In this document: in pieces, positions 3,467-63,030 of the stretch
How positions within the stretch are numbered: position 1 is the first letter of the stretch
How the letters are laid out: every line of letters starts with the position of its first letter
Assembly: GCA_029981855.1 (NCBI GenBank)
Contig: JARRCS010000002.1
Coordinates: 1 to 64,000, forward strand
Reading direction: 5' to 3'
DNA length: 64,000 nucleotides
From: Halanaerobiales bacterium
Lineage (GTDB): Bacteria > Bacillota > Halanaerobiia > Halanaerobiales > DTU029
Translations under genes and position numbers: made by a program
Notes under the pieces: model-generated
Seen by the model: the letters and a program-made list of their open reading frames with translations, nothing else
Database searches by the model: none
Told to the model about the DNA's origin: nothing

Positions 3467-5170
3467 TTATTCTATCTTTTCTAAAAGATCGAGCACACCA
3501 TCTACGGCCTCTACTAAGGGTATATCAATCTGCTCACCGGTTCTGCGGATCTTTGCTTCGATTACTCCCCTCTCCAGCGCACGGGAACCGATGGTTATTC
3601 TTAAGGGAATGCCAATCAGATCGGCGTCATTAAACTTAACACCTGCCCGCTCATCCCTGTCATCAATCAGGACCTCTATTCCAGCCGCCTTAAGCTTTTC
3701 ATATAACCCTTCTGCTAGTTCCTCAGCTTTCCCTTTACCCAGAGGTAGAATGATTACCTGATAGGGGGCAATAGCCTTAGGCCAGATGATACCATTCTCA
3801 TCATGATGCTGTTCAATAGCTGCAGCCACCAGTCTGGTAATACCGATACCATAACTTCCCATAACTATTACCTGTTCCTTGCCGTTTTCATCAAGATAGG
3901 TTGCTCCCAGGCTCTCGCTGTACTTGGTCCCCAGTTTAAAGATATGGCCAACCTCTATTCCGGATTTAATCTCCAGGCTGCCTTCACATCTGGGACACCT
4001 GTCACCGGCCCTAACCATCCGTAGATCAACATACTCCTCCACCTGGAAATCCCGCCCGGGGTTAACATTTAGATAATGGTAGTCCTCTTCATTGGCCCCG
4101 GCAACAGCATTCCTGATGGATTTCACTCTCAGGTCAGCAACTACCCTTACCCCTTTCAAGCCAACAGGGCCGATAAAACCGGCCACACTATTAAAGTATT
4201 CAGTAAAATCCTCATCTGCAACCGGTGTCAGTTCCAGGACGTCAAGGTAATTTTTTAATTTAATCTCATTGAGCTGGTCATCTCCCCGGAGTAAAACCAG
4301 GACGGGCTCCCCATCAGCTAGTAAGCCCAGGGATTTAATAGTTTTTCCGGCCTCGGTATTGAGGAAAGCGGTTATATCATCAATGGCTTTCTGCCCGGGG
4401 GTTTTCACCTTTTCTAAGGGTTTCATTTCTTCATTATCTTCTTGAGCCTTAAAGCCCGCTTCTGCCCTTTCCACATTGGCAGCATAATCACACTGCTGGC
4501 AAAAGGCGATCTCATCTTCCCCGGCTTCAGCCAGAACCATAAATTCATGAGAGTCCTTACCACCCATGGGTCCTGTATCAGCCTCAACCGCCCTGACCTC
4601 TAAACCACAATTGGCAAAGGCTTTAGTATAGGCGTCATACATTATCTGGTAACTCTTATCTAACCCGGCAAAATCCCGATCAAAACTGTAGGCATCTTTC
4701 ATAATAAATTCCCTACCCCGCATTACACCAAACCTGGGTCTGATCTCATCCCTGACCTTAGTTTGAATCTGATAGAGGTTGAGGGGCAGATCTTTATAGG
4801 AACGGATCTCATCCCTGATAAGATCGGTAATTACCTCTTCATGAGTAGGTCCCAGACAGTATTCCCTTCCCTTCCGATCCTCAAATTTGATCATCAGGGG
4901 ACCAAACCTGTCCCAGCGGCCTGACTCCTTCCAGAGCTCGGCGGTATGTATGACCGGCATTAGAATCTCCTGAGCACCGCTTTCATCCATCGCCTGGCGA
5001 ACAATCTCTTCAATCTTCCTGATTACCCTGTAACCGAGAGGTAGATAAGTATAAACACCGGCGGTTAAACTCCTCATCAAACCGGCCCTTAACATCAACT
5101 GATGGCTGACTATCTCGGCCTCTGCCGGAATCTCCTTTAGTGTCGGTAGATATAATCTTGACATACGCAT
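3467..5170 (-). CDS. proS: Prolyl-tRNA synthetase (bacterial type)
   Basis: Charges tRNA-Pro with proline in the cytosol. 567 residues, the usual length for bacterial-type ProRS with an inserted editing domain. Class II motif 2 is seen as FGVMRGREFIMKDAYSFD (about 147-164), the INS editing domain lies about 225-385, motif 3 is GSYGIGITRLVAA (about 443) and the C-terminal anticodon-binding domain follows (YQVIILPLG). A CQQCDY...CPRCEG pair suggests retained cysteines around the insertion. AAGGAG lies 9 bases before the first ATG. ispG ends 6 bases upstream, so the two are coupled. Confidence 0.97.
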   Translation of the reverse strand: MRMSRLYLPTLKEIPAEAEIVSHQLMLRAGLMRSLTAGVYTYLPLGYRVIRKIEEIVRQAMDESGAQEILMPVIHTAELWKESGRWDRFGPLMIKFEDRKGREYCLGPTHEEVITDLIRDEIRSYKDLPLNLYQIQTKVRDEIRPRFGVMRGREFIMKDAYSFDRDFAGLDKSYQIMYDAYTKAFANCGLEVRAVEADTGPMGGKDSHEFMVLAEAGEDEIAFCQQCDYAANVERAEAGFKAQEDNEEMKPLEKVKTPGQKAIDDITAFLNTEAGKTIKSLGLLADGEPVLVLLRGDDQLNEIKLKNYLDVLELTPVADEDFTEYFNSVAGFIGPVGLKGVRVVADLRVKSIRNAVAGANEEDYHYLNVNPGRDFQVEEYVDLRMVRAGDRCPRCEGSLEIKSGIEVGHIFKLGTKYSESLGATYLDENGKEQVIVMGSYGIGITRLVAAAIEQHHDENGIIWPKAIAPYQVIILPLGKGKAEELAEGLYEKLKAAGIEVLIDDRDERAGVKFNDADLIGIPLRITIGSRALERGVIEAKIRRTGEQIDIPLVEAVDGVLDLLEKIE

Positions 5171-32786: not shown

Positions 32787-32981
32787 ATTTTAGATGGGGT
32801 AGAGGCGCAAAGTCTGAAGAGTAGCTACAGAAACAGTGAACCTTTGTCTGTAGTGAAAGGCAGCTTTGCCGAAGTCTCTACTCGAGGGTTCATAGAGTAG
32901 AGGCTGGGCCTGTGCAAAATATGTACAGGACTGTCACTATGAACTTAACCCGGTTCATAGTGGAGTGCTATCTCATAAAAA
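32787..32981 (+). ncRNA. Lysine riboswitch (L box)
   Basis: Conserved core elements are in order: GGTAGAGGCGCAAAG, AAGAGTAGC, GTGAAAGGCAGCTTTGCCGAAG, GGCTGGGCCTGTGC and GACTGTCACT, then GTGGAGTGCTATCTC closing helix P1. These match the L-box class that turns off lysine biosynthesis or uptake genes when lysine is bound. It lies between a strong promoter and an intrinsic terminator, upstream of an NhaC-family transporter gene. Confidence 0.93.
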
Positions 32982-34923: not shown

Positions 34924-36420
34924 TCATAAATATAGTTTTTCCAAATAAGAGAGGTATCTAGCAAATATTTTTACATATTCCCTGACATTTTCCTTTACCG
35001 GATGGAATCTCCCTTTAACAACAAACCCCTCCTTTATCTCATCATAATCATCTATCCATCCCAGAGCTCTGAAGGCTATCAGGGCAGCACCCAGAGAGGG
35101 GGCACCTGCCTTTAATTCCAGGATATTTATGTCTAGATTAAGGATATCTGCTAATATCTGTGGCCAGATATTACTTCTACTGCCCCCACCGATCATATTT
35201 ATCTGGCGGGGGTGTTCTTCTTCCCCCAGCATTTCTCTGAGGTTATGCTTTAGGGAAAAGCCTACCCCTTCTAAAACCGCCCGTAACATCTCATATCTGC
35301 CGCTTTTCGTACCAAGACCGATAAAGCCACCATTATTCTCCTTTATCTTTACGGGGCTACGCTCACCGCTCAAAAAGGGGAAAAATAATATCCCCTCACT
35401 ACCGGCAGGAATACTACTAATTCTCTCCTCTACCCTACGATATTCTTCCGCCGGGATTTGAGCCATTTTCTCACCAGCGGCCAGGATCTTTAAGAGATAC
35501 CAGTCATAGGTTTTGCCGGCATTAAGGATTGCTCCAGCAAGAATATACCCATTCCCATCAACATTACTCAGGGAGAAGATATTTTTATTTGCAGAAACAC
35601 TTCCTGCCGGTGTGGCTAACCAGCCTGTCGTACCCAGATAACAGTAGATATCGCCTTCTTTCAGAGCCCCGGCTCCTAGGGTTGAGGCACCGAGATCCCC
35701 GGCACCGTTGATGACCGGGATACCTGCAGGCAGATTAAGTTCTGCCGCTGCCCTATCGCTCAAACTACCTGCCATACTACTGGCCTTTTGCAAGTGGGGT
35801 AGAAAGCTCCGGTCAAGATTTAACTCTTCAAGCAAATAAGTATTCCACTCACCCCGGATGATATCCAAAAAACCGGTTGTCGCGGCATTGGTATAATCAG
35901 TAATATTATTACCCGTCAGGCGAAAATTAAGAAAATCCTTGGCTCCGGTAATCAAATAACTGTGTTTAGAAAAGAGATCAGCCCTGTTCTCTCTTAAATA
36001 TAGATATTTATTAATAGACATCAGAGGATCAAAATTGTTTCCGGTTATCCTTTCCAGATAATCCTTCCCGAATAGCTCCTTTAACAGTTCACACTCCTTT
36101 TCTGCCCTGCCATCAGAATAAAGCAGAACCTCGGTTAGAGGTTCTCCCCGGACGTCCAATAATAAACAATCCTCCATCTGGCCTGTGGAAGAAATAGCTG
36201 CAATTTTCTTCCGGTTTATCTTATCATCATTTTTAAGCCTCATACATAAGGTTTTAATCCCTTCCCACCAATCCTCAGCTTTTTGTACCTGGTGACCATC
36301 CCGTTCATAGGTTTTGAGGGGATAATCATCTGTATAGATAGCATTTATATTTCTGTCAAAGATAACCATTTTAATTGCTGTTGTCCCCAGGTCAAAGGTT
36401 AAGATATATTCTCTCTGCAT
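34924..36420 (-). CDS. FGGY-family carbohydrate kinase
   Basis: About 498 residues. The N-terminal phosphate-binding loop is TFDLGTTAIKMVIFD; SSTGQMEDCLLLD (about 82) and GAGDLGASTLGAG (about 245-257) hold the substrate and catalytic Asp sites; NMIGGGSRSNIWPQILADILN (about 405) is the FGGY signature. The layout resembles xylulokinase, but ribulokinase or LsrK-like activity cannot be excluded. It is the last gene of the sugar ABC operon, so it probably phosphorylates the imported sugar or a derivative. ATG 36420 is chosen; GTG 36435 overlaps the permease stop. Confidence 0.85.
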   Translation of the reverse strand: MQREYILTFDLGTTAIKMVIFDRNINAIYTDDYPLKTYERDGHQVQKAEDWWEGIKTLCMRLKNDDKINRKKIAAISSTGQMEDCLLLDVRGEPLTEVLLYSDGRAEKECELLKELFGKDYLERITGNNFDPLMSINKYLYLRENRADLFSKHSYLITGAKDFLNFRLTGNNITDYTNAATTGFLDIIRGEWNTYLLEELNLDRSFLPHLQKASSMAGSLSDRAAAELNLPAGIPVINGAGDLGASTLGAGALKEGDIYCYLGTTGWLATPAGSVSANKNIFSLSNVDGNGYILAGAILNAGKTYDWYLLKILAAGEKMAQIPAEEYRRVEERISSIPAGSEGILFFPFLSGERSPVKIKENNGGFIGLGTKSGRYEMLRAVLEGVGFSLKHNLREMLGEEEHPRQINMIGGGSRSNIWPQILADILNLDINILELKAGAPSLGAALIAFRALGWIDDYDEIKEGFVVKGRFHPVKENVREYVKIFARYLSYLEKLYL

Positions 36421-36431
36421 TATTAGGCAAA

Positions 36432-37364
36432 TCACCTTCCCTCTACTTTTATTCCCTGAAAGACCAGAGCGGCTATAATAATTGCCCCGGTCAGCATGTC
36501 CTGAAAATAACTGGCTACCCCCAGCAGGGTCAGACCATTTTCCAGAACCCCCATTATTAAAACCCCGACAAAGGTCCCCGGGATATTGGGTTTTCCCTCT
36601 TTAAAAAGAGTCATTCCGAGAAAAACAGTGGCATAGGATTTTAAAAGATAGGCACCACCCGCTGTCGGATGGGCGGAACCGAGTTTAGAGGCAAGGATTA
36701 TCCCTGTTAAAGCCGCCAATCCGCTGGACAGACCGAAGGCAATCTGCTTATTCTTCTCGATTTTAATCCCTGAATATCTACTCGCCTTTTCATTCCCCCC
36801 GATTGCATAAAGGTGTCTCCCCAGCATCGTTTCATTAAAAAGGTACCAGAAGATAATAAAAATAATGACCATAATTAATGTAGAGATGGGTAGCCCCAAT
36901 ATCTCCCCCTGACCCCAGATAAGAAATTGATCCGGTATACCGGAAAAGATGATTGTCCCCTTGGAATACCAGAAGGTTATTCCACCCAGCAGTGTTCCGC
37001 TGGAGAGGGTGGTGATAAAGGATAGGATATTTAAATTAGCGACAAAAAAACCATTTAAAATACCGAAAAGGAAACTCATAAACAGTACCAGGGGAATAAC
37101 CAGGTACATGGAATAACCCGTAACCAGGAGACCGGCCGTAATGACCCCGGCAAAACTAGCTACATTGGCCAGGGAAAGGTCAAACTCACCGATAACCATT
37201 ACCATGGTAGCGCCGGTAGCAATAACTGCCAGTAGGGAGACCTGTTCCAAGATATTGGAAAAATTTCTTAAGGTAGGGAATACTCCGGGTTTGAGAAATG
37301 AAAAGGTAATTATTATCAATATTAATCCCATAAAGGTCCCGTACTTCCTTAATATCTCCTGCAT
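36432..37364 (-). CDS. Sugar ABC transporter permease (RbsC/XylH family)
   Basis: 310 residues, 8-10 membrane segments. GEFDLSLANVASFAGVI (about 62-78) is the conserved block of ribose/xylose-type permeases and YAIGGNEKASRYSGI (about 185) is the coupling-loop motif that contacts the ATPase. ATG follows GAGGGGG by 7 bases and lies 2 bases after the ATPase gene. Only one permease gene is present, so a homodimer is expected. Confidence 0.92.
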   Translation of the reverse strand: MQEILRKYGTFMGLILIIITFSFLKPGVFPTLRNFSNILEQVSLLAVIATGATMVMVIGEFDLSLANVASFAGVITAGLLVTGYSMYLVIPLVLFMSFLFGILNGFFVANLNILSFITTLSSGTLLGGITFWYSKGTIIFSGIPDQFLIWGQGEILGLPISTLIMVIIFIIFWYLFNETMLGRHLYAIGGNEKASRYSGIKIEKNKQIAFGLSSGLAALTGIILASKLGSAHPTAGGAYLLKSYATVFLGMTLFKEGKPNIPGTFVGVLIMGVLENGLTLLGVASYFQDMLTGAIIIAALVFQGIKVEGR

Positions 37365-37366
37365 AA

Positions 37367-38902
37367 TTAAACCCCCTCATAACTCAGCTGAAGGATATTT
37401 TTTTCACTTATCTCATCACCGCTTAAAATACCTCTAATTCTACCTTTACTCATAACTGCAACCCTGTCTGAGATCCTGATAATCTCGGACAGGTCGGATG
37501 ATATAACTATAACACCCCCATCTCTGCTTAAATCATCAATAAGACGATAAATCTCCTTCCTGGCCCCGACATCAATCCCGGTTGTAGGTTCATCAAAGAT
37601 AAAGACCGTTCTATCCTTGAGCAGCCACTTGCCGATAACCACCTTCTGCTGATTTCCACCACTTAAGTACTTAACCCGGATAACCGGTGAAGGTGTTTTA
37701 ATATCCAGTTCATCAACCAGTCCCCGGGTAGCCTTTCTCTCCTTGCCTTTATCGATCTTATTAAGCAAAGGGAATCTTAAAAATTGGCCAAGATTTGGCA
37801 GGGAGAGATTCTCACTGACTGTCATGTCTAGCACCAGTCCCTCTTCCCTGCGGTCTTCGGGTATTAAAATCAGACCATTTTCGATCATTGCTGCTGGATT
37901 AGGTCGCTCAATTCTCCGGCCTTTAAGGATTATCTCACCCTGCTCAATTTCTTCCAGCCCGAAGATTGCCTTCATCGTGTCCGTCCTCCCGGCACCGGTG
38001 AGACCGTAAAAACCTAACACCTCACCGGAATTAAGCGTAAAACTTATATTCTCAAATCCCCTTCCCTTAAGATTCTTTACCTCAAGGATTACCCCATGGG
38101 AACTCTTACTTTTAGCCCTAGCTAATATTTTAGCCTTAGCTGGATTTTTAGCTTCATTGGTATGACGGTTAAAGGCCTTTCCTTCTGTCATTAAATTTAT
38201 TAGTTCCTCCTTATCAATCTCATTAATACTTTTATCAGCAACCTTTCTGCCGTCTTTAAGGACCGTAACCGAGTCAGCAATTGCAAAAATCTCCTCCAGA
38301 CGATGAGAAATATAGATAATACCTATTCCTCTCTCTTTAATCTCTTCCAGATTCCTGAAAAGCTCCCTTACCTCTTTATCTGTAAGGGCTGCGGTCGGTT
38401 CATCAAGGACCAGGAGTTTCGTTTCCATCATAAAGGCCTTGAGAATAGCTACCAGCCACTTATCGGGTGTCGATAACCTGGAAACGGGAGAATAAATATC
38501 CAGCGTAAAGTTGAAATGCCCCATCAACTCTTTCACCCTTTTCTGCATCCTGTCTCTGGCAAAACGAAACCCCCTTCTGGGATAGCCAAATCCGAGCCAG
38601 ATATTCTCAACAGCATTAAAATAGGGGACCAGATTAAGATCCTGGTGGATAAAGGCAAGGCCTGCTTCCCTCGCCTGGTGGGGGGAATTCAAATTTAACC
38701 TCTCACCATTAAAATAGATCTCCCCCCTATCTGCCTGATAAATTCCGGCCAGGATCTTGATCAAGGTGGATTTACCAGCCCCGTTCTCACCTACCAGAGC
38801 TTTAATCTCCCCTCTATTCAGGGTAAAATCTACCCCGGAAAGGGCCCTGACTCCGGGAAAGGTTTTATCTATCTGCTCCATCCTTAAGAGTGTATCAGCC
38901 AT
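37367..38902 (-). CDS. Sugar ABC transporter, dual ATP-binding protein (RbsA/XylG family)
   Basis: About 511 residues containing two fused ABC domains. First: VGENGAGKSTLIKIL (Walker A), LSTPDKWLVAILKAF (an altered signature) and LLVLDEPTAALTD (Walker B). Second: FYGLTGAGRTDTMKAIFG (degenerate Walker A), VKYLSGGNQQKVVIGKWL (signature) and FIFDEPTTGIDVGAR. Degenerate halves are typical of this family. ATG 38902 follows GGGAGGT by 10 bases. Operon order is binding protein, ATPase, permease, kinase. Confidence 0.93.
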   Translation of the reverse strand: MADTLLRMEQIDKTFPGVRALSGVDFTLNRGEIKALVGENGAGKSTLIKILAGIYQADRGEIYFNGERLNLNSPHQAREAGLAFIHQDLNLVPYFNAVENIWLGFGYPRRGFRFARDRMQKRVKELMGHFNFTLDIYSPVSRLSTPDKWLVAILKAFMMETKLLVLDEPTAALTDKEVRELFRNLEEIKERGIGIIYISHRLEEIFAIADSVTVLKDGRKVADKSINEIDKEELINLMTEGKAFNRHTNEAKNPAKAKILARAKSKSSHGVILEVKNLKGRGFENISFTLNSGEVLGFYGLTGAGRTDTMKAIFGLEEIEQGEIILKGRRIERPNPAAMIENGLILIPEDRREEGLVLDMTVSENLSLPNLGQFLRFPLLNKIDKGKERKATRGLVDELDIKTPSPVIRVKYLSGGNQQKVVIGKWLLKDRTVFIFDEPTTGIDVGARKEIYRLIDDLSRDGGVIVISSDLSEIIRISDRVAVMSKGRIRGILSGDEISEKNILQLSYEGV

Positions 38903-38949
38903 TCGGTCACTACCTCCCTTTCCACAAAACAAAGCAACCAGGTCAGAAA

Positions 38950-38979
38950 CAGGTTAGCTATATCTAAATAGCTAACCTG
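38950..38979 (-). terminator. Hairpin between the binding-protein and ATPase genes
   Basis: A perfect 12-bp stem CAGGTTAGCTAT / ATAGCTAACCTG with a 6-base loop. There is no long U-tract, so it may act as a partial terminator or 3' mRNA stabiliser, the usual way to make binding protein in excess of membrane parts. Confidence 0.5.
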
Positions 38980-39004
38980 TCTTCAATCACTAAAACCTGA
39001 AAAA

Positions 39005-39057
39005 TTAATGTCTCACTATCGTTCGGTAACCTAATATACTTTAATAGTAACTGCAAT
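39005..39057 (+). repeat. Dispersed palindromic repeat, copy 7 (left-end fragment)
   Basis: ATGTCTCACTATCGTTCGGTAAC and AATAGTAACTGCAATT match the left flank and the first bases of the core of the family; the rest is lost. It lies between the two hairpins of the ABC operon gap. Confidence 0.5.
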
Positions 39058-39058
39058 T

Positions 39059-39114
39059 AAAAATTACGACATCGCTCAATGCGCAAGTGTCTAAACCATC
39101 ATTGCGTAATTTAA
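39059..39114 (-). terminator. Hairpin at the end of the sugar-binding-protein gene
   Basis: AAATTACG / CGTAATTT outer stem and CAATG / CATTG inner pairing on the minus strand, followed by TTTTTAATTG. It overlaps the stop codon region of the binding-protein gene and could be a leaky terminator. Confidence 0.5.
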
Positions 39115-40031
39115 TTATTTAAATACTTATCCACATTATCCCTGGTAATTAATACACTGGGAGCATAAATTATCCTGTCAGTTACCTCTTTACCAGCAAA
39201 AACCTTTTTTATCTGGTCAACCAGGATTTTACCCATCGCTTCAAAATCCTGTTTAACGGTAGCTATGATGGGAGAACCCTTTTTAATCATCTCCAGGGCC
39301 TGGGATGTACCGTCTATGCCTACAACAACAATCTTATCTTCCAGCCCTGCCTGTTGAATGGCCAGGGCAGCCCCGATTGCCGGTTCATCCCAGGCGGCCC
39401 AGACCGCATCAATATCGGGATTAGCTAATAAAATCGACTGCATGGCCTTCCGGGCATCTTCAATCGGACCGGGCACCTGGACAAAGTGTTCCGCTACTAC
39501 CTCAATATCATCCCTGGAAGCGGCGATAGCATCAAAAACCACTTCCCGTTTATAGACCCCAGGATGAGCGGAATGATATAATTTAACTACCTTTCCCTGT
39601 TTAATTTTATTGAAAAGATATGAGGTATTTTGGGCGGCCAGAACGTAATTATTTGAGGTTACATTACACTCTATCCCCGGGATATAACCGGCATCTCCGC
39701 CAAACACCGGTATACCGGCTTCATTGGCCATTTTGATCTGTTTTTTTAGCTGGTTAGGGTCACCCATTCCCATAACAATAGCATCTACACCCTGAGCGAT
39801 AACATCTTCATAGCGGTTAGCCAGGGCATTAAAGTCTCCCTTAGTATCAATTACCGTAACATGCCAGCCATTGGCCTCTGCCTCAGCCTTAAAGGACTGA
39901 ATCATTTTATTGGTGGTTACCGATGCCAGATAGGGTGTTAAAACCGCTATCTCCTTAGTTGCTGCTAAGCCTGCCACCGATACTGTAGAAATAAGAGATA
40001 AAACCATTATTAAAATTAACATCTTCTTCAA
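39111..40031 (-). CDS. Sugar ABC transporter substrate-binding protein
   Basis: About 306 residues. An N-terminal signal peptide (KKMLILIMVLSLISTVSVAGLAA) has no lipobox Cys. The mature part is a periplasmic-binding-protein type I fold: YLASVTTNKMIQSFKAEAEANGW, VIAQGVDAIVMG (about 80), AWAAWDEPAIGAALAI-like (about 214) and VVVGIDGTSQALEMI. This belongs to the RbsB/XylF group; the sugar is unknown. Start TTG 40031 is 8 bases after AGGGAG; a GTG at 40040 overlaps the Shine-Dalgarno sequence. First gene of the operon. Confidence 0.88.
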   Translation of the reverse strand: MKKMLILIMVLSLISTVSVAGLAATKEIAVLTPYLASVTTNKMIQSFKAEAEANGWHVTVIDTKGDFNALANRYEDVIAQGVDAIVMGMGDPNQLKKQIKMANEAGIPVFGGDAGYIPGIECNVTSNNYVLAAQNTSYLFNKIKQGKVVKLYHSAHPGVYKREVVFDAIAASRDDIEVVAEHFVQVPGPIEDARKAMQSILLANPDIDAVWAAWDEPAIGAALAIQQAGLEDKIVVVGIDGTSQALEMIKKGSPIIATVKQDFEAMGKILVDQIKKVFAGKEVTDRIIYAPSVLITRDNVDKYLNN

Positions 40032-40106
40032 TTTAATCACTCCCTGATTCTTTTTTTTTTAATAAAAGTAATTAGAATACATAACACTCCCATTAGATGA
40101 ACAAAT

Positions 40107-40172: not shown

Positions 40173-40952
40173 CTATAAAGCTGCCTTAAGGCTTTTAATA
40201 AAGGAAGCCACTTCTGTTAACATCTGCTCGGGATTATCGTTATACCGGGCAATTATCTTGATTAAGGCACTGCCGATAATTACCCCGTCAACAAATTCTC
40301 TCACCTCCCTTACCTTATCCGGCCCATCTATCCCAAAACCCAGGGCGAGGGGAATATTTGCATACTGCCGAACCCTTTCTAAGTAACTCTTGATCTCCTG
40401 CAGAGGACCCTTCCTGTCCCCGGTAACCCCCAAGAGAGATACACAGTAAAGAAAACCACTGCTCCTTTTGGCGATCTCCTTTAACCTGCACTCGGAGGTA
40501 ACCGGTGTAGTCATTAATATACCCACAAGACCCTTACATTTAAGTCTCTGATAAAAGTCCTCATCTTGGTCAAAAGGCAGGTCAGGAAGAATTACTCCGG
40601 ATAACCCGACCTTGATTGCATCCTCTATAAAGCGCTCTTTTCCATACTGTAAAATACAATTATAATAGCCCATCAGGAGAAGCGGACTCTTTAAATGGCC
40701 TTTAAGTCTAAGTAGCATCTCCATTATCCCCGCCAGGGTTGTTCCGCTTTTTAAGGCCCTCTGGCCAGCAGCCTGGATAACCGGCCCATCGGCTAAAGGA
40801 TCGGAATATGGAACACCAACCTCAATTATATCTGCCCCTGACTTATCCAGGGTAAGTAGGAGTTCTTCGGTTGTTTTAAGGTCCGGATCCCCGGCCGTAA
40901 TATACGGTATTAATGCCTTTCTATCGCTGAAAACCTGCTCAACCCTGTTCAA
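40173..40952 (-). CDS. trpA: Tryptophan synthase alpha chain
   Basis: Cleaves indole-3-glycerol phosphate to indole, channelled to TrpB. About 259 residues. Catalytic Glu is in [21 protein letters not shown] and Asp in [15 protein letters not shown]; the phosphate site is [14 protein letters not shown] prefer TTG 40952 (NRVEQVFSD), 9 bases after AAGGAG, because the ATG at 40961 directly abuts that site. It overlaps the trpB end. A dispersed repeat begins at its stop. Confidence 0.96.
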
Positions 40953-42150
40953 TAGACTCATCTCCTTTATATTTAAGTACTGAATTTACATCCTTATCAC
41001 CGCGCCCGGATAGATTGATAACTACTACTTCTTCCTTAGAGAGTTCTGGTACCAATTTTAAGGCATAGGCCAGGGCATGAGAGCTTTCCAGGGCGGGGAT
41101 AATCCCCTCAATTTTGGTCAGCAGTTCAAAGGCAGCCACGGCTTCCTCATCAGTTACCGACTGGTAATCAACCCGTTTGATCTCATGGAGGTAACTGTGC
41201 TCGGGACCGACCCCGGGGTAATCCAGACCAGCTGAGATTGAGTGAGCCTCCAGGATCTGCCCATCCTCATCCTGCAGCAAATAGGATTTGCTTCCGTGAA
41301 GTGTGCCGATTTTACCCTGAGTGAGGGTAGCCGCATGTTTACCCATATTGATACCCCTGCCTGCTGCCTCAACACCGATTAATTTTACTTCCTTATCTTC
41401 AAGCAAGGGGTAGAAGATACCCATGGCATTACTTCCGCCACCAACACAGGCAATAACATAGTCTGGCAGCCGCCCCTCCTTTTCCCTGATCTGGACCTTC
41501 ATTTCATCGCCGATAATTCTCTGAAAATCCCGGACGATAGTCGGGTAGGGATGGGGACCAACCACCGAACCAATAATATAGTGGGTATCTTCCACATTGG
41601 TAACCCAGTCCCTGATGGCTTCATTGGTTGCATCTTTCAGGGTCTGGCTTCCTGAATATACCGGAATCACCTCTGCGCCCAGCAGTTTCATTTTAAAAAC
41701 ATTTAAGGCCTGACGCTCGATATCCTTTGCCCCCATATAGACACAGCATTTTAATCCAAATTTAGCAGCCGCTGTAGCGGTGGCAACACCATGCTGTCCT
41801 GCTCCGGTTTCAGCAATAATTCTCTTCTTTCCCATCTTAACCGCCAGCAAAATCTGCCCCAGAGTATTATTAATCTTGTGGGCCCCGGTATGATTCAGGT
41901 CCTCCCTTTTTAGATAAACCCTGGCCCCATCCAGGTAGGAAGTCAACTGGTCGGCAAAATAAAGAGGGGTAGGCCGTCCGCTATATTCCTTTAGTAGCTG
42001 GTCAAGTTCGGCTTTAAAATCCGGATCTGTACTTAAATTTGTATAAACCTCCTCCAGTTCCTCTAAAGCTGGTATTAAAGTCTCCGGAACAAAACGACCG
42101 CCAAACTCACCGAAATACCCCCTCTTTTTAGCAGAAAAAATATTATCCAT
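40939..42150 (-). CDS. trpB: Tryptophan synthase beta chain
   Basis: PLP enzyme joining indole and serine. About 403 residues from ATG 42150. [18 protein letters not shown] near the start, the PLP lysine in [18 protein letters not shown], and the phosphate-cup glycines [12 protein letters not shown] 42150 follows AGGAG by 8 bases. An alternative ATG at 42201 overlaps the trpF stop (ATGA) and follows AAGGAG by 5 bases, adding 17 residues; both may be used. Confidence 0.96.
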
Positions 42151-42197
42151 TTTTTCAGCTCCTAAAGAACTCTCAGTTAAATTGATATAACTCTCCA

Positions 42198-42833
42198 TCA
42201 TCCGGTCTCCTTTCCGTAGTTTAATTGAAACTCCCTTATTTCCCTGATAGCTTTATTAAGTAAATCCGGATCTTTAACTCCGGGTGAGCTCTCAACCTTA
42301 CTGTTCAAATCTATCCCGGCCATCTTTATCCGCTTTAGAGCAGTCCCTATATTTTCTGGACCCAACCCACCGGCCAGAATGAAGGGCTTATTGATCTTTA
42401 GTCCCTTAAGCAGTTCCCAGTCAAAGGAGAGGCCGGTTCCCCCCTTTTTACTACTGCTTTTACTATCAAAGAGAAAATAATCTGCAGCATCATACTTCTT
42501 AAGCAGGGTAAAATCATCCCGGGAAGAGATACTGAAAGCCTTAATAGTCTTTAAAGGGGTTCCGGCAATTACTTCCGGTTCCTCTTCTCCATGAAACTGG
42601 ATATAATCGAAAAGGCCGCTAGTAATTATCTCTTTTAGTTCCCTTTTATCAGGATTAACCACTACAGCAACCCTCTGGATAAAGGGGGGAAGATCGACGG
42701 TTAAAACCCTTACATCAGCCAGGCTGACCTGTCTGGGGCTTGGGGCCAGGATAAACCCCAGGGCATTAACCCCCAGCCGGCAAGCAAGCATTATATCCTC
42801 CCTTCGGGTTAACCCACAAAGTTTTATCTGCAT
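42198..42833 (-). CDS. trpF: Phosphoribosylanthranilate isomerase
   Basis: Third step after anthranilate in tryptophan synthesis. About 211 residues, TIM barrel. Catalytic Cys in [14 protein letters not shown] at the start, and catalytic Asp in [18 protein letters not shown] near the end; [10 protein letters not shown] and [11 protein letters not shown] lie between. ATG 42833 follows GGGGAGGT; a longer frame to 42872 has no such site. Confidence 0.95.
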
Positions 42834-42911
42834 GGAAGTTACCTCCCCCTGTTTGGAACAAATTGCCTTCACAAAACCTTCAACAATGTATGACCTAAGT
42901 ACCTCTTCAGG

Positions 42912-43658
42912 TTATTTACAGGAAAAAAGCTCTTTAATCTTTGCTACCGGGTCTTCGGCTCTCATCAGGGATTCACCGATTAAAACCCCGTTAATCCCCA
43001 GTTTTTTCAAGTATTCAATGTCGTTCCGTGTCTTGATACCGCTCTCTGAGACAAGGTAATATTTATCTTTAAGGTTCATCCTGACCAGTTCATTGACGAT
43101 TCTCTCCGTCGTTGAGAGCTCTACCGTAAAATCCTGTAGATCCCGGTTATTAATCCCGATAATCCGGGCTCCGCTCGTCAGGGCCTTTTTTAAATCATTA
43201 AGATTATGAACTTCTACCAGAGCCTCCATCCCCAGAGAGTGGGCAGTATCAAGTAGGTTCCGCAACTTAACTTCCTCCAGAATGGCAGCAATCAGTAAGA
43301 TAACATCTGCCCCAAGAAAGAAACTCTCATATACCTGAAGGGAATCGATAATAAAGTCCTTTCTTAAAATGGGAAGCCGGGTTTTCTTCCTCAATCTCCG
43401 TAAAATCTCTTTACTCCCCTGAAAAAATTTCTTATCTGTTAGGATGGAGATGGCATCAGTCCCCCCTTTTAAATAAGCCTTTAGCTGCAATACGGGATCA
43501 AAGTCCGGTTTGATAATCCCCTTACTAGGTGAAGCCTTCTTGATTTCGGCAATTAAGGTTATAGTTTCCTCTGTAAGTTTTGATATTAAAGAATTGCGGG
43601 GTTTCTTTATCTGTTCGACCTCAATCTTTTTCTCCGCTACTATCTTATCTAAAATCAT
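42912..43658 (-). CDS. trpC: Indole-3-glycerol phosphate synthase
   Basis: Decarboxylative ring closure giving indole-3-glycerol phosphate. 248 residues. LDKIVAEKKIEVEQIK, IAEIKKASPSKGII (catalytic Lys and phosphate site, about 37-50), ILRKDFIIDSLQVYES, GINNRDLQDFTVELSTT and LVSESGIKTRNDIEYL are all conserved. The ATG has no ordinary Shine-Dalgarno sequence next to it; GGGAGGAG lies upstream of a hairpin that could fold it to the right distance. Confidence 0.96.
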   Translation of the reverse strand: MILDKIVAEKKIEVEQIKKPRNSLISKLTEETITLIAEIKKASPSKGIIKPDFDPVLQLKAYLKGGTDAISILTDKKFFQGSKEILRRLRKKTRLPILRKDFIIDSLQVYESFFLGADVILLIAAILEEVKLRNLLDTAHSLGMEALVEVHNLNDLKKALTSGARIIGINNRDLQDFTVELSTTERIVNELVRMNLKDKYYLVSESGIKTRNDIEYLKKLGINGVLIGESLMRAEDPVAKIKELFSCK

Positions 43659-43772: not shown

Positions 43773-44798
43773 TTATGCCGATAATCCCCGGGAATTAGTA
43801 AATTCAATCAGCTCGGTTAACTTTTGATAGGCCTTCCCGCTATCAATTATTTCTGCGGCAAGGCCGACACCCTCCTGCCAGTTCTCTACCAGCCCGGTAA
43901 CAATAAAGGCTGCCGCCGCATTAAAGAGAACCACATCCCTTTTCGGGCCCGCTTTACCCCTTAAAATATCCAGGATAATCTCTTTATTCTCCTCAGGGGT
44001 TCCGCCAGTTAGCTCCTTGAGCCCGGCCCTCGGCAGATTGGCTTCCTCGGGGTAGACAACCAGCTCTTCAATCTTCCCATCATGTAAATAGGCTACATAA
44101 TTGGCCCCGGTTAGGGAGAATTCATCAACTCTACCATCACCGTTTACAACCATAGCCCCGCTAACCCCCAGGTTTTTTAGTACCTTGGTCAGAGGGAAAA
44201 CCAGTGAAGTGTCGTAGACTCCCAGTACTTGATAGTTGGCACCGGCCGGATTTGTTAGTGGTCCGAGAACATTAAAGATAGTTCTTAATCCCAGTTCTCT
44301 TCTCGGTTTTATGGCATATTTCATTGCCTGATGAAACTGGGGGGCAAAGAGAAACCCGAGATTGATCTCCTCAACACAGGCTTCCACCTCACCGGGTGAA
44401 AGGGCCAGATTGACACCAAGAGCCTCCAGCACATCAGCACTACCGCTCTTGCTTGAGACCGAACGGTTTCCGTGTTTGGCAACTGATAAACCGGCCCCGG
44501 CTAAAACAAAAGCTACGGTAGTTGAGATATTAAAGGTGCCACTACCATCACCACCGGTTCCGCAGGTATCGACGAGCTTATCTGTCCGGCCTTTAATACT
44601 AACTGCCTTCTCCCGCATTACTCGCGCTGCTCCGGTTATTTCACCGATGGTCTCCCCCTTCATCCTTAACGCCACCAGCAGACCGGCAATCTGGCTGTCC
44701 GTTGCCTTCCCTTCCATTATCGTCCTCATTACCTTCTCCATCTCCGGGATAGTTAAATCCCTTCCTGAAATAACCTTTTCCAGATAAGAATTCAGCAT
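43773..44798 (-). CDS. trpD: Anthranilate phosphoribosyltransferase
   Basis: Attaches PRPP ribose to anthranilate. 341 residues. PRPP loop DTCGTGGDGSGTFNIST (about 80), KHGNRSVSSKSGSADVLEALG (split motif at about 107), and the metal site in VVNGDGRVDEFSLTG. It is a stand-alone TrpD, not fused to TrpG. First gene of trpDCFBA; the trpE and trpG genes for the preceding step are not in the window. ATG follows GGGGG by 8 bases. Confidence 0.96.
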   Translation of the reverse strand: MLNSYLEKVISGRDLTIPEMEKVMRTIMEGKATDSQIAGLLVALRMKGETIGEITGAARVMREKAVSIKGRTDKLVDTCGTGGDGSGTFNISTTVAFVLAGAGLSVAKHGNRSVSSKSGSADVLEALGVNLALSPGEVEACVEEINLGFLFAPQFHQAMKYAIKPRRELGLRTIFNVLGPLTNPAGANYQVLGVYDTSLVFPLTKVLKNLGVSGAMVVNGDGRVDEFSLTGANYVAYLHDGKIEELVVYPEEANLPRAGLKELTGGTPEENKEIILDILRGKAGPKRDVVLFNAAAAFIVTGLVENWQEGVGLAAEIIDSGKAYQKLTELIEFTNSRGLSA

Positions 44799-44818
44799 CT
44801 TTCATTCCCCCTTCATTG

Positions 44819-44856
44819 AAAAAAAACCAGACCCATGTTTATGCATAAGCCTGGTT
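44819..44856 (-). terminator. trp leader terminator 2 (promoter-distal)
   Basis: AACCAGGCTTATG / CATGGGTCTGGTT forms a 13-pair stem with a 6-base loop, followed by eight T on the minus strand, 20 bases before trpD. The arm repeats the TAACCAGGCTTATG segment of terminator 1. Confidence 0.9.
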
Positions 44857-44922
44857 AATAAGTTAAGTAGATAAAATTGGCTTCCGACTTTAAGAAAAAA
44901 AATTACTAATAACCAAAATCAT

Positions 44923-44971
44923 AAAAAAAACCAGACTCACATTTTTATTGATGAAAAACATAAGCCTGGTT
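44923..44971 (-). terminator. trp leader terminator 1 (promoter-proximal)
   Basis: AACCAG...GCTTATGTTTTT pairs with AAAAATGTGAGT...CTGGTT, about 18 pairs with wobbles, followed by eight T on the minus strand. It shares its 5' arm with terminator 2. Confidence 0.88.
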
Positions 44972-44994
44972 ATAAGATGCGAATTAAGTACACA

Positions 44995-45045
44995 CTCATC
45001 TCATCTTTTCTTCCTCAACTAAACTAACTAACCTCGGCTCATCTA
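44995..45045 (-). promoter_or_regulatory. TRAP (MtrB)-type RNA-binding site in the trp leader
   Basis: The transcript carries nine (G/U)AG triplets. Seven begin at the promoter-proximal end (TAG GAG GAG TAG TAG TAG GAG), spaced by 2 bases with one exception of 1 base. After an 11-base gap come GAG and GAG, again 2 apart. This is the pattern bound by the 11-subunit TRAP ring. The segment AGCCGAGGTTA (45029-45039) inside it is complementary to TAACCAGGCT in both downstream terminators, giving an antiterminator that TRAP binding would block. Confidence 0.82.
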
Positions 45046-45063
45046 ATTATTCAATTTTTAAAC

Positions 45064-45092
45064 ATCATATCGTATTAATATAGATTTGTCAA
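45064..45092 (-). promoter_or_regulatory. trp operon promoter
   Basis: TTGACA (45087-45092) and TATGAT (45064-45069) on the minus strand, 17 bases apart, starting 15 bases after the stop of the metallo-hydrolase gene. The predicted RNA start (about 45057) lies just ahead of the (G/U)AG repeats. Confidence 0.85.
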
Positions 45093-45106
45093 CCCCTTAA
45101 TAAATT

Positions 45107-45856
45107 TTAACTACCTTTTTTATAGAAAATCTTCTCACCCCTGTGCTTAATTTCCGCCACCTTCACAGACGAATCCTTTAATTTTCCGGCAAATTGACCG
45201 GTAATCTGAAAATTATCTGCAAAGTGAATTGGTACAAGTAAAGACGGCTTAATCTCCCGGGCGAAATACTCCCCGGCAAGGTAATAATACTCCTCTAACC
45301 TGGGATCGACAGGGATAAAGGCTATATCTATCTTTTCTCCCCTGATCTTTTCTATCTCCCTTTTAAAGTCTGCCTCCTCCTTTTTCAGCTCCACTTCAGA
45401 AAAGCTTTTCCAGTGCCACCAGTTCAAATCCCCGGCATGGAAGATCGCCAGGTCATTCAACCGGACCAGAAAGGAGACACCCCTATCAGTCGAACCAAAG
45501 GTTTGAATATCTAAATCATCTATCCTCAGCTCTTCATCCTGGTCAAGGAAATAATATAAACCCCGATCAGGTAACTTCATGTTAATATCAGCACTAAGGA
45601 TATATTTTATGTCAGGGTTGGCCCTCTGCCATTCAAAGATAACCGGGTTAAAATGATCTCCGTGGCTATGGGAAACAAAAACACAAACCGCATCCCTGTC
45701 CTTGAAATCCTTAGCCGAAAGGACACCGCCAGAAATATCTCTTTTCCGCCCGGCTGGCTTATCCAAATAATAGTCAAAGACCAGAAAATACCTTTCTACC
45801 TCAATGGCAACCCCGCTATGGTAGAGATGAAAAATGCTTGCCTTTACCTTGCCCAT
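45107..45856 (-). CDS. Metallo-beta-lactamase-fold hydrolase (UlaG-like)
   Basis: 249 residues, cytosolic. Metal ligands are in FVSHSHGDHFNP (about 59-70) and in FHAGDLNWWHW (about 142-152), with the late His in VPIHFADN (about 219). The UlaG-like group of small MBL-fold hydrolases acts on varied phosphodiester or lactone substrates; no specific one is suggested here. It follows the ABC ATPase gene by 17 bases, so it may be cotranscribed with the exporter. Confidence 0.85.
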   Translation of the reverse strand: MGKVKASIFHLYHSGVAIEVERYFLVFDYYLDKPAGRKRDISGGVLSAKDFKDRDAVCVFVSHSHGDHFNPVIFEWQRANPDIKYILSADINMKLPDRGLYYFLDQDEELRIDDLDIQTFGSTDRGVSFLVRLNDLAIFHAGDLNWWHWKSFSEVELKKEEADFKREIEKIRGEKIDIAFIPVDPRLEEYYYLAGEYFAREIKPSLLVPIHFADNFQITGQFAGKLKDSSVKVAEIKHRGEKIFYKKGS

Positions 45857-62797: not shown

Positions 62798-62932
62798 TAT
62801 CCCTTCGGTGTGATATAAATATCTGTACCGCTCGGACCTGCTATTTACAGTCGGTATCCACCTGTACCGACATATCGGTGTTCTCATCTTGCACAGATAT
62901 AAAACCGGCTGTAAATACGGGAACCTAGGTAC
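62781..62932 (-). ncRNA. ykkC-type riboswitch, PRPP class inferred
   Basis: Minus-strand elements CTAGGTTCCCG (start), CAGGTCCGAGCGGTAC, ACACCGAAGGGATAAAAGCCC and AGGCGGGGAGG match the ykkC RNA core. ykkC RNAs sense guanidine (subtype 1), ppGpp (2a) or PRPP (2b). Position after a guanine aptamer and before purD points to the PRPP class, in which PRPP turns expression on. Ligand is inferred from context. Confidence 0.8.
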
Positions 62933-62937
62933 ACTTC

Positions 62938-63005
62938 CCTCATAGTCAGGTAGTTTACGGCTACCTGGTAGAGACTTGTGAGCCATATTCTCACAATTAT
63001 ATGAG
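62938..63005 (-). ncRNA. Guanine (purine) riboswitch aptamer
   Basis: Minus strand: CCTCATATAATTGTGAGAAT, ATGGCTCACAAG, TCTACCAGGTAGCC and GTAAACTACCTGACTATGAGG. Helix P1 is CCTCATA/TATGAGG and P2/P3 loops are intact. The specificity base (C in CTGACTATG) predicts guanine rather than adenine. It lies directly ahead of the ykkC-type aptamer. Confidence 0.93.
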
Positions 63006-63030
63006 GTACATTATTTATTTTTACAGATTT

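Follow-up and report, generated by a model that had tools for sequence, protein, structure and literature searches.

TRAP attenuation is a textbook case of regulation from bacilli, with one rather weak terminator. In the closest described system, the TRAP (MtrB)-controlled leader of the Bacillus subtilis trpEDCFBA operon, an 11-triplet site just after the promoter contains the antiterminator strand, a terminator hairpin adjoins it, and the trp operon lies downstream. In B. subtilis, TRAP itself displaces RNA polymerase at U-rich stretches, and the trp leader terminators of bacilli are weak, unlike the strong canonical ones described here (PMC3913778). Tandem T-boxes, including those on trp operons, and tandem riboswitches duplicate the sensor with each terminator (PMC12452182). 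The leader analyzed here has in common with them two successive termination decisions on one signal, for which a pseudo-cooperative response is expected, but one sensor strand serves both of its terminators. The open papers searched contained no published study of TRAP attenuation in Halanaerobiales. The leader precedes trpDCFBA in a 64,000-nt stretch of DNA from a Halanaerobiales bacterium, which was analyzed as a whole and is referred to below as the window.

The trpDCFBA leader and its TRAP site

The operon lies on the minus strand downstream of the leader, beginning with trpD (43773..44798; TIGR01245, 428 bits) and continuing with trpC, trpF, trpB, and trpA (40173..43658). By all features that can be tested in the sequence, there is good support for identifying the leader as a TRAP-type trp attenuator. 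No Rfam family, including T-box, was above its gathering score in the leader; the atoC RNA (RF01733) was rejected as its identity at 26.9 bits versus the 50 required. Elsewhere in the window, genes for an FGGY sugar kinase and a sugar ABC transporter are located directly 3' of trpA (34924-40040, minus strand), and there are a lysine riboswitch (32792-32978, plus strand, 118 bits) and a purine riboswitch (62923-63024, minus strand, 98 bits).

A sigma-A-type promoter is predicted at 45064..45092 (minus strand), where TTGACA (45092) and TATGAT (ending at 45064) match 11 of 12 consensus bases and are separated by the 17 nt that the original prediction had given. This call is a consensus match, for which 1.7 sites were expected by shuffling; no other promoter-like site occurs on either strand of 44700-45300. 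A second promoter between the two terminators was rejected, there being no promoter-like sequence there.

The predicted TRAP-binding site (44995..45045, minus strand) begins approximately 12 nt downstream of the inferred transcription start and reads TAG-at-GAG-cc-GAG-gt-TAG-t-TAG-tt-TAG-tt-GAG-g-AAG-aa-AAG-at-GAG-at-GAG from 45045 to 44995. All nine (G/U)AG triplets claimed earlier are present, and two AAG triplets bring the total to 11. The triplet-chain score of the site, a measure of our own, is 7.4, compared with a maximum of 6.0 in 60 dinucleotide shuffles of the whole 64-kb window; the next best real chain in the window scores 4.3. The number of triplets is the typical one of about 11, while two of the inter-triplet spacers are 1 nt rather than the typical 2-3 nt. 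Because of these two spacers and the two AAG triplets, TRAP binding may be weaker than in bacilli.

The assignment presupposes a gene for TRAP, and mtrB is indeed encoded once in the genome of the window (PF02081, E 7.6e-39, 133.1 bits versus a cut-off of 21.3). The 78-aa MtrB matches solved TRAP structures along its length (E 7e-49 to 4e-23) and keeps TKF and AIKVRG. The search covered the genome of the window and those of 60 relatives, and 48 of these 61 have mtrB. It is located no more than a few kb from the trp operon in G011, G031, G038, G041, G048, G050, G053, and G056-G058; unlike in several families, it is on a different contig from trpDCFBA in the window's genome. A separate trpE is found on another contig (C28) of this genome, and its leader has a second TRAP site (GAGTTGAGCCCAGGTTAGTTTAGATGAGTTGAGTTTAG) and one terminator. 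This second leader (L134, 3757-3910) has eight clear triplets and a GGGAGC-GCTCCC hairpin, and its single terminator is AACCAGGGTG..CCCTGGTT.

Serial terminators and one antiterminator strand

Two intrinsic terminators were found in the searched region, against 0.2 expected by shuffling, both on the minus strand. Terminator 1 (T1, 44929..44971) has an 18-bp stem (5' arm 44971-44963, 3' arm 44937-44929) with a 7-nt loop, and terminator 2 (T2, 44825..44856) has a 13-bp stem (5' arm 44856-44848, 3' arm 44833-44825) with a 6-nt loop. The hairpin energies are -18.7 and -16.7 kcal/mol, respectively, and each is followed by a U-tract that is an uninterrupted T run (~44928-44921 after T1 and ~44824-44817 after T2). 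Both terminators start with AACCAGGCTTATG, which their 5' arms have in common, and finish with TCTGGTT, bearing out the claim of two successive homologous terminators; the pattern AACCAGGCT-N5-30-TCTGGTTTTTT occurs in the window's genome only at T1 and T2. In the region comprising the T1 U-tract and the 72-nt inter-terminator spacer (44857..44928, minus strand), the part immediately before T2 is weakly antisense to the TRAP site.

The antiterminator strand AGCCGAGGTTA (45029..45039, minus strand) lies inside the TRAP site, and its bases AGCC-GA-GGTTA are complementary to both 5' arms. Pairing had been proposed to be equal with the two arms; it is nearly so, and slightly better with T2 (approximately -15.7 kcal/mol for T1 and -17.4 for T2). 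With their flanks, the duplexes reach -22.2 kcal/mol at T1, where 11 of 300 shuffles were as good, and -30.0 at T2, where 1 of 300 was. The strand recurs in relatives: the element GAGCCGAGGTTAG or GAGCCCAGGTTAG is also found in the trpD leader of G003 and the trpE leaders of G005-G007, as well as in the genome's own trpE leader. By pairing and by the staged folding described below, the antiterminator is located within the TRAP site and is mutually exclusive with the terminator.

The proposal that this locus reproduces the B. subtilis TRAP switch holds for mtrB, the trpDCFBA genes, and the anatomy of the site and the switch, i.e., an 11-triplet site just after the promoter with the antiterminator strand inside it and a terminator adjoining. 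It does not hold for the 5' stem-loop, which is absent before the triplets and for which the ~12 nt in front of the site leave no room, nor for the terminators, which are strong canonical hairpins here and number two, sharing the antiterminator-binding sequence. Other differences from B. subtilis are the 26 nt between T2 and the trpD ATG, with little room for a hairpin that sequesters the ribosome site, and an operon that begins with trpD, with trpE elsewhere behind its own TRAP leader. In addition, a PF15777 search of the window's genome returned no anti-TRAP gene above the cut-off; the sole match, below the cut-off and within a 373-aa frame, was rejected as a candidate and is presumably a DnaJ zinc domain. 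The leader has a single triplet chain and no second TRAP site before T2, and is thus not a two-site tandem TRAP attenuator. What is new in it is the serial arrangement of terminators behind one TRAP site, a variant of the Bacillus TRAP attenuator. TRAP itself could push the polymerase off at the U-rich stretches, as was shown for B. subtilis (PMC3913778), leaving the strand switch secondary. We consider this very unlikely at the present locus, where strong hairpins (-18.7 and -16.7 kcal/mol) are followed by uninterrupted U-tracts, whereas those of bacilli are weak and interrupted.

Staged folding of the window leader, which gives equilibrium probabilities at chosen RNA lengths and not kinetics, followed the strand from one terminator to the other. 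Before the 3' arm of T1 is made, the TRAP-site strand is on the T1 5' arm (p 0.88); when T1 is complete, its hairpin prevails (0.97). Before the 3' arm of T2 is made, the strand is on the T2 5' arm (p 0.89) with T1 still closed (0.96). When the TRAP site is masked, both hairpins form (T1 0.97, T2 0.96). At -62.6 kcal/mol, the minimum-energy structure of the leader combines T1 with the strand:T2 arm duplex, and the fold with T1 and T2 is close behind (-62.0 kcal/mol). With T2 complete, T2 is favored in the TRAP-free leader (0.90), so passage of T2 would have to be kinetic.

The two terminators had been expected to compete for one strand. The same strand does pair with both arms, but competition is probably not the mode, because RNA polymerase meets T1 and then T2, and staged folding favors successive use. 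We infer TRAP binding, termination, and their timing in the window leader as follows. When tryptophan is present, TRAP would wrap the 11 triplets and make AGCCGAGGTTA unavailable, T1 would form and stop transcription, and polymerases escaping T1 would reach T2, likewise formed. Without tryptophan, the strand would pair with the emerging 5' arm of T1, and T1 would be passed. T1, as the more stable partner, would then close behind the polymerase and release the strand, which would pair with the 5' arm of T2 as it emerges, so that T2 would be passed too. One antiterminator strand would thus be used twice, and the TRAP site would be re-exposed between the stops, where TRAP would have another opportunity to bind. 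We regard a two-terminator serial TRAP attenuator with such a strand hand-over as the best explanation, with a probability slightly above one half; for the hand-over itself, it is the best reading that the calculations suggest.

Alternatively, only T1 or T2 may be regulated, and the other would be a leaky terminator that lowers the output by a fixed factor. The full-length leader agrees with this, since T2 is favored without TRAP and with it (0.90 and 0.96), and so do two related trpD leaders, one (G002) with just one terminator, close to the T1 position, and the other (G003, with the strand GAGCCGAGGTTAG) in which T1 has decayed (-5.6 kcal/mol) and the T2 position alone is intact, which implies that one terminator suffices. 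In the window, however, both 5' arms retain the ten strand-pairing bases, the T2 arm is captured at p 0.89 before T2 is completed, and two strong serial terminators without relief would nearly silence the operon. A single regulated terminator is unlikely in our assessment.

The strand could also stay on the T1 5' arm, so that the freed T1 3' arm (GTGAGTCTGGTT) pairs with the T2 5' arm and disables T2; the decision at T1 would then be handed on to T2, with no second chance for TRAP. The duplex of these two arms is -16.6 kcal/mol in the window, matched by 1 of 300 shuffles, and it is also found in the sister genus g6 (-10.8 to -13.4 kcal/mol). This complementarity is, however, an automatic consequence of the likeness between the two 5' arms and is not above shuffles in most Halanaerobium leaders. 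In addition, the relayed state has an equilibrium probability of 0.00 at the tested stages in all tandem leaders and is 12 kcal/mol worse in the window than T1 with strand:T2. In a coarse macrostate kinetic model, the same state dominated before T2 completion if folding was fast; the model favored hand-over, relay, or T2 termination depending on the assumed attempt rate, which set T2 termination anywhere from 4% to >99%. As the main route, such a relay was rejected, being disfavored by staged folding and, in most Halanaerobium leaders, no better than chance, and we hold it to be quite improbable. For the hand-over, findpath gives a barrier of approximately 10 kcal/mol for the change from strand:arm 1 to T1, and the route starts at the AU-rich top of T1, which is free while the strand covers the T1 base.

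Tandem terminators in related leaders

The trp leaders of the class were scanned with one script for a TRAP site and terminators. Two terminators behind a TRAP site are present in 13 leaders, i.e., that of the window and 12 others of the order. The others precede trpE, in three species of the sister genus g6 (G005-G007) and in nine species of the genus to which Halanaerobium salsuginis belongs (G030, G037, G026, G034, G035, G032, G033, G023, and G028); in the leader of G036, the first hairpin is weaker. A single clear terminator is the rule in other families. Like the window's leader, the Halanaerobium and g6 leaders have two terminators behind a TRAP site, with spacers of 66-301 nt, and a GAGCC-type antiterminator strand, but they precede trpE rather than trpD, and their terminators are not near-identical copies, which among the leaders scanned occur only in that of the window. 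The recurrence in relatives indicates that the double stop did not arise by chance and is not confined to the window's genome, and it suggests two successive checks for tryptophan ahead of the genes.

The other tandem leaders fold in a similar order; the values are weaker in some, and T1 is absent in G003. In 13 of the 13 other two-terminator leaders scored, the probability that the strand is on the T2 arm is 0.60-0.89 at the stage before T2 completion. We also compared the pairing of 21 leaders with their own TRAP site and with those of other genomes, using 20000 permutations that ignore kinship. The flank and arm of the last terminator pair better with the own site (mean -27.3 kcal/mol) than with foreign sites (-23.0 kcal/mol), a difference reached in 0 of the 20000 permutations, kinship being ignored. 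By group, and with the same disregard of kinship, the signal has p 0.002 in f1 alone and p 0.0007 in f3/f5, and it comes mainly from G005, G036, G003 trpD, G023, and G028. In the window itself, pairing of the T2 region is not specific to the own TRAP site (rank 6 of 21, and 15 of 21 for the flank alone). Co-variation of T1 with the TRAP site gave no signal (p 0.15), and TRAP-site antisense across the whole spacers of the tandem leaders was not in excess (p 0.30). This comparison of sequences supports an antiterminator based on the TRAP site at the last terminator and is not proof of its re-use.

Some of these leaders have further features. The inter-terminator spacer in the g6 trpE leaders of G006 and G007 (L129, L130) contains CTCTAATCTAAGCTT, a 15-nt antisense to the end of the TRAP site, and the best spacer:site duplex there is -40 to -43 kcal/mol; CTCTAATCTAAGCTT might re-hide the TRAP site after read-through. 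In G034 (L098, ~4437-4800), the T1-T2 spacer exceeds that of the closest sister species by approximately 200 nt and carries a palindrome-rich insert that may be a small mobile element. At the trpD ribosome-binding site within the operon, (G/U)AG triplets occur in Halanaerobium and other families (L038-L044, L046, L051, L058), suggesting that TRAP may also control translation.

Biological significance

In its widest form, our reading is a tentative one: a serial attenuator, possibly kept across much of Halanaerobiales, in which the sensor-site strand freed by closure of T1 would be re-used on T2 and each polymerase would be checked twice by one site. The tighter or graded control anticipated from two terminators is plausible for the window leader. 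Two strong terminators on one sensor site would show how a response can be made steeper with a single copy of the sensor, and the tandem TRAP leaders would allow the timing of strand exchange behind a transcribing polymerase to be tested in a natural system. With these leaders, TRAP attenuation also reaches an order that is anaerobic and largely halophilic.
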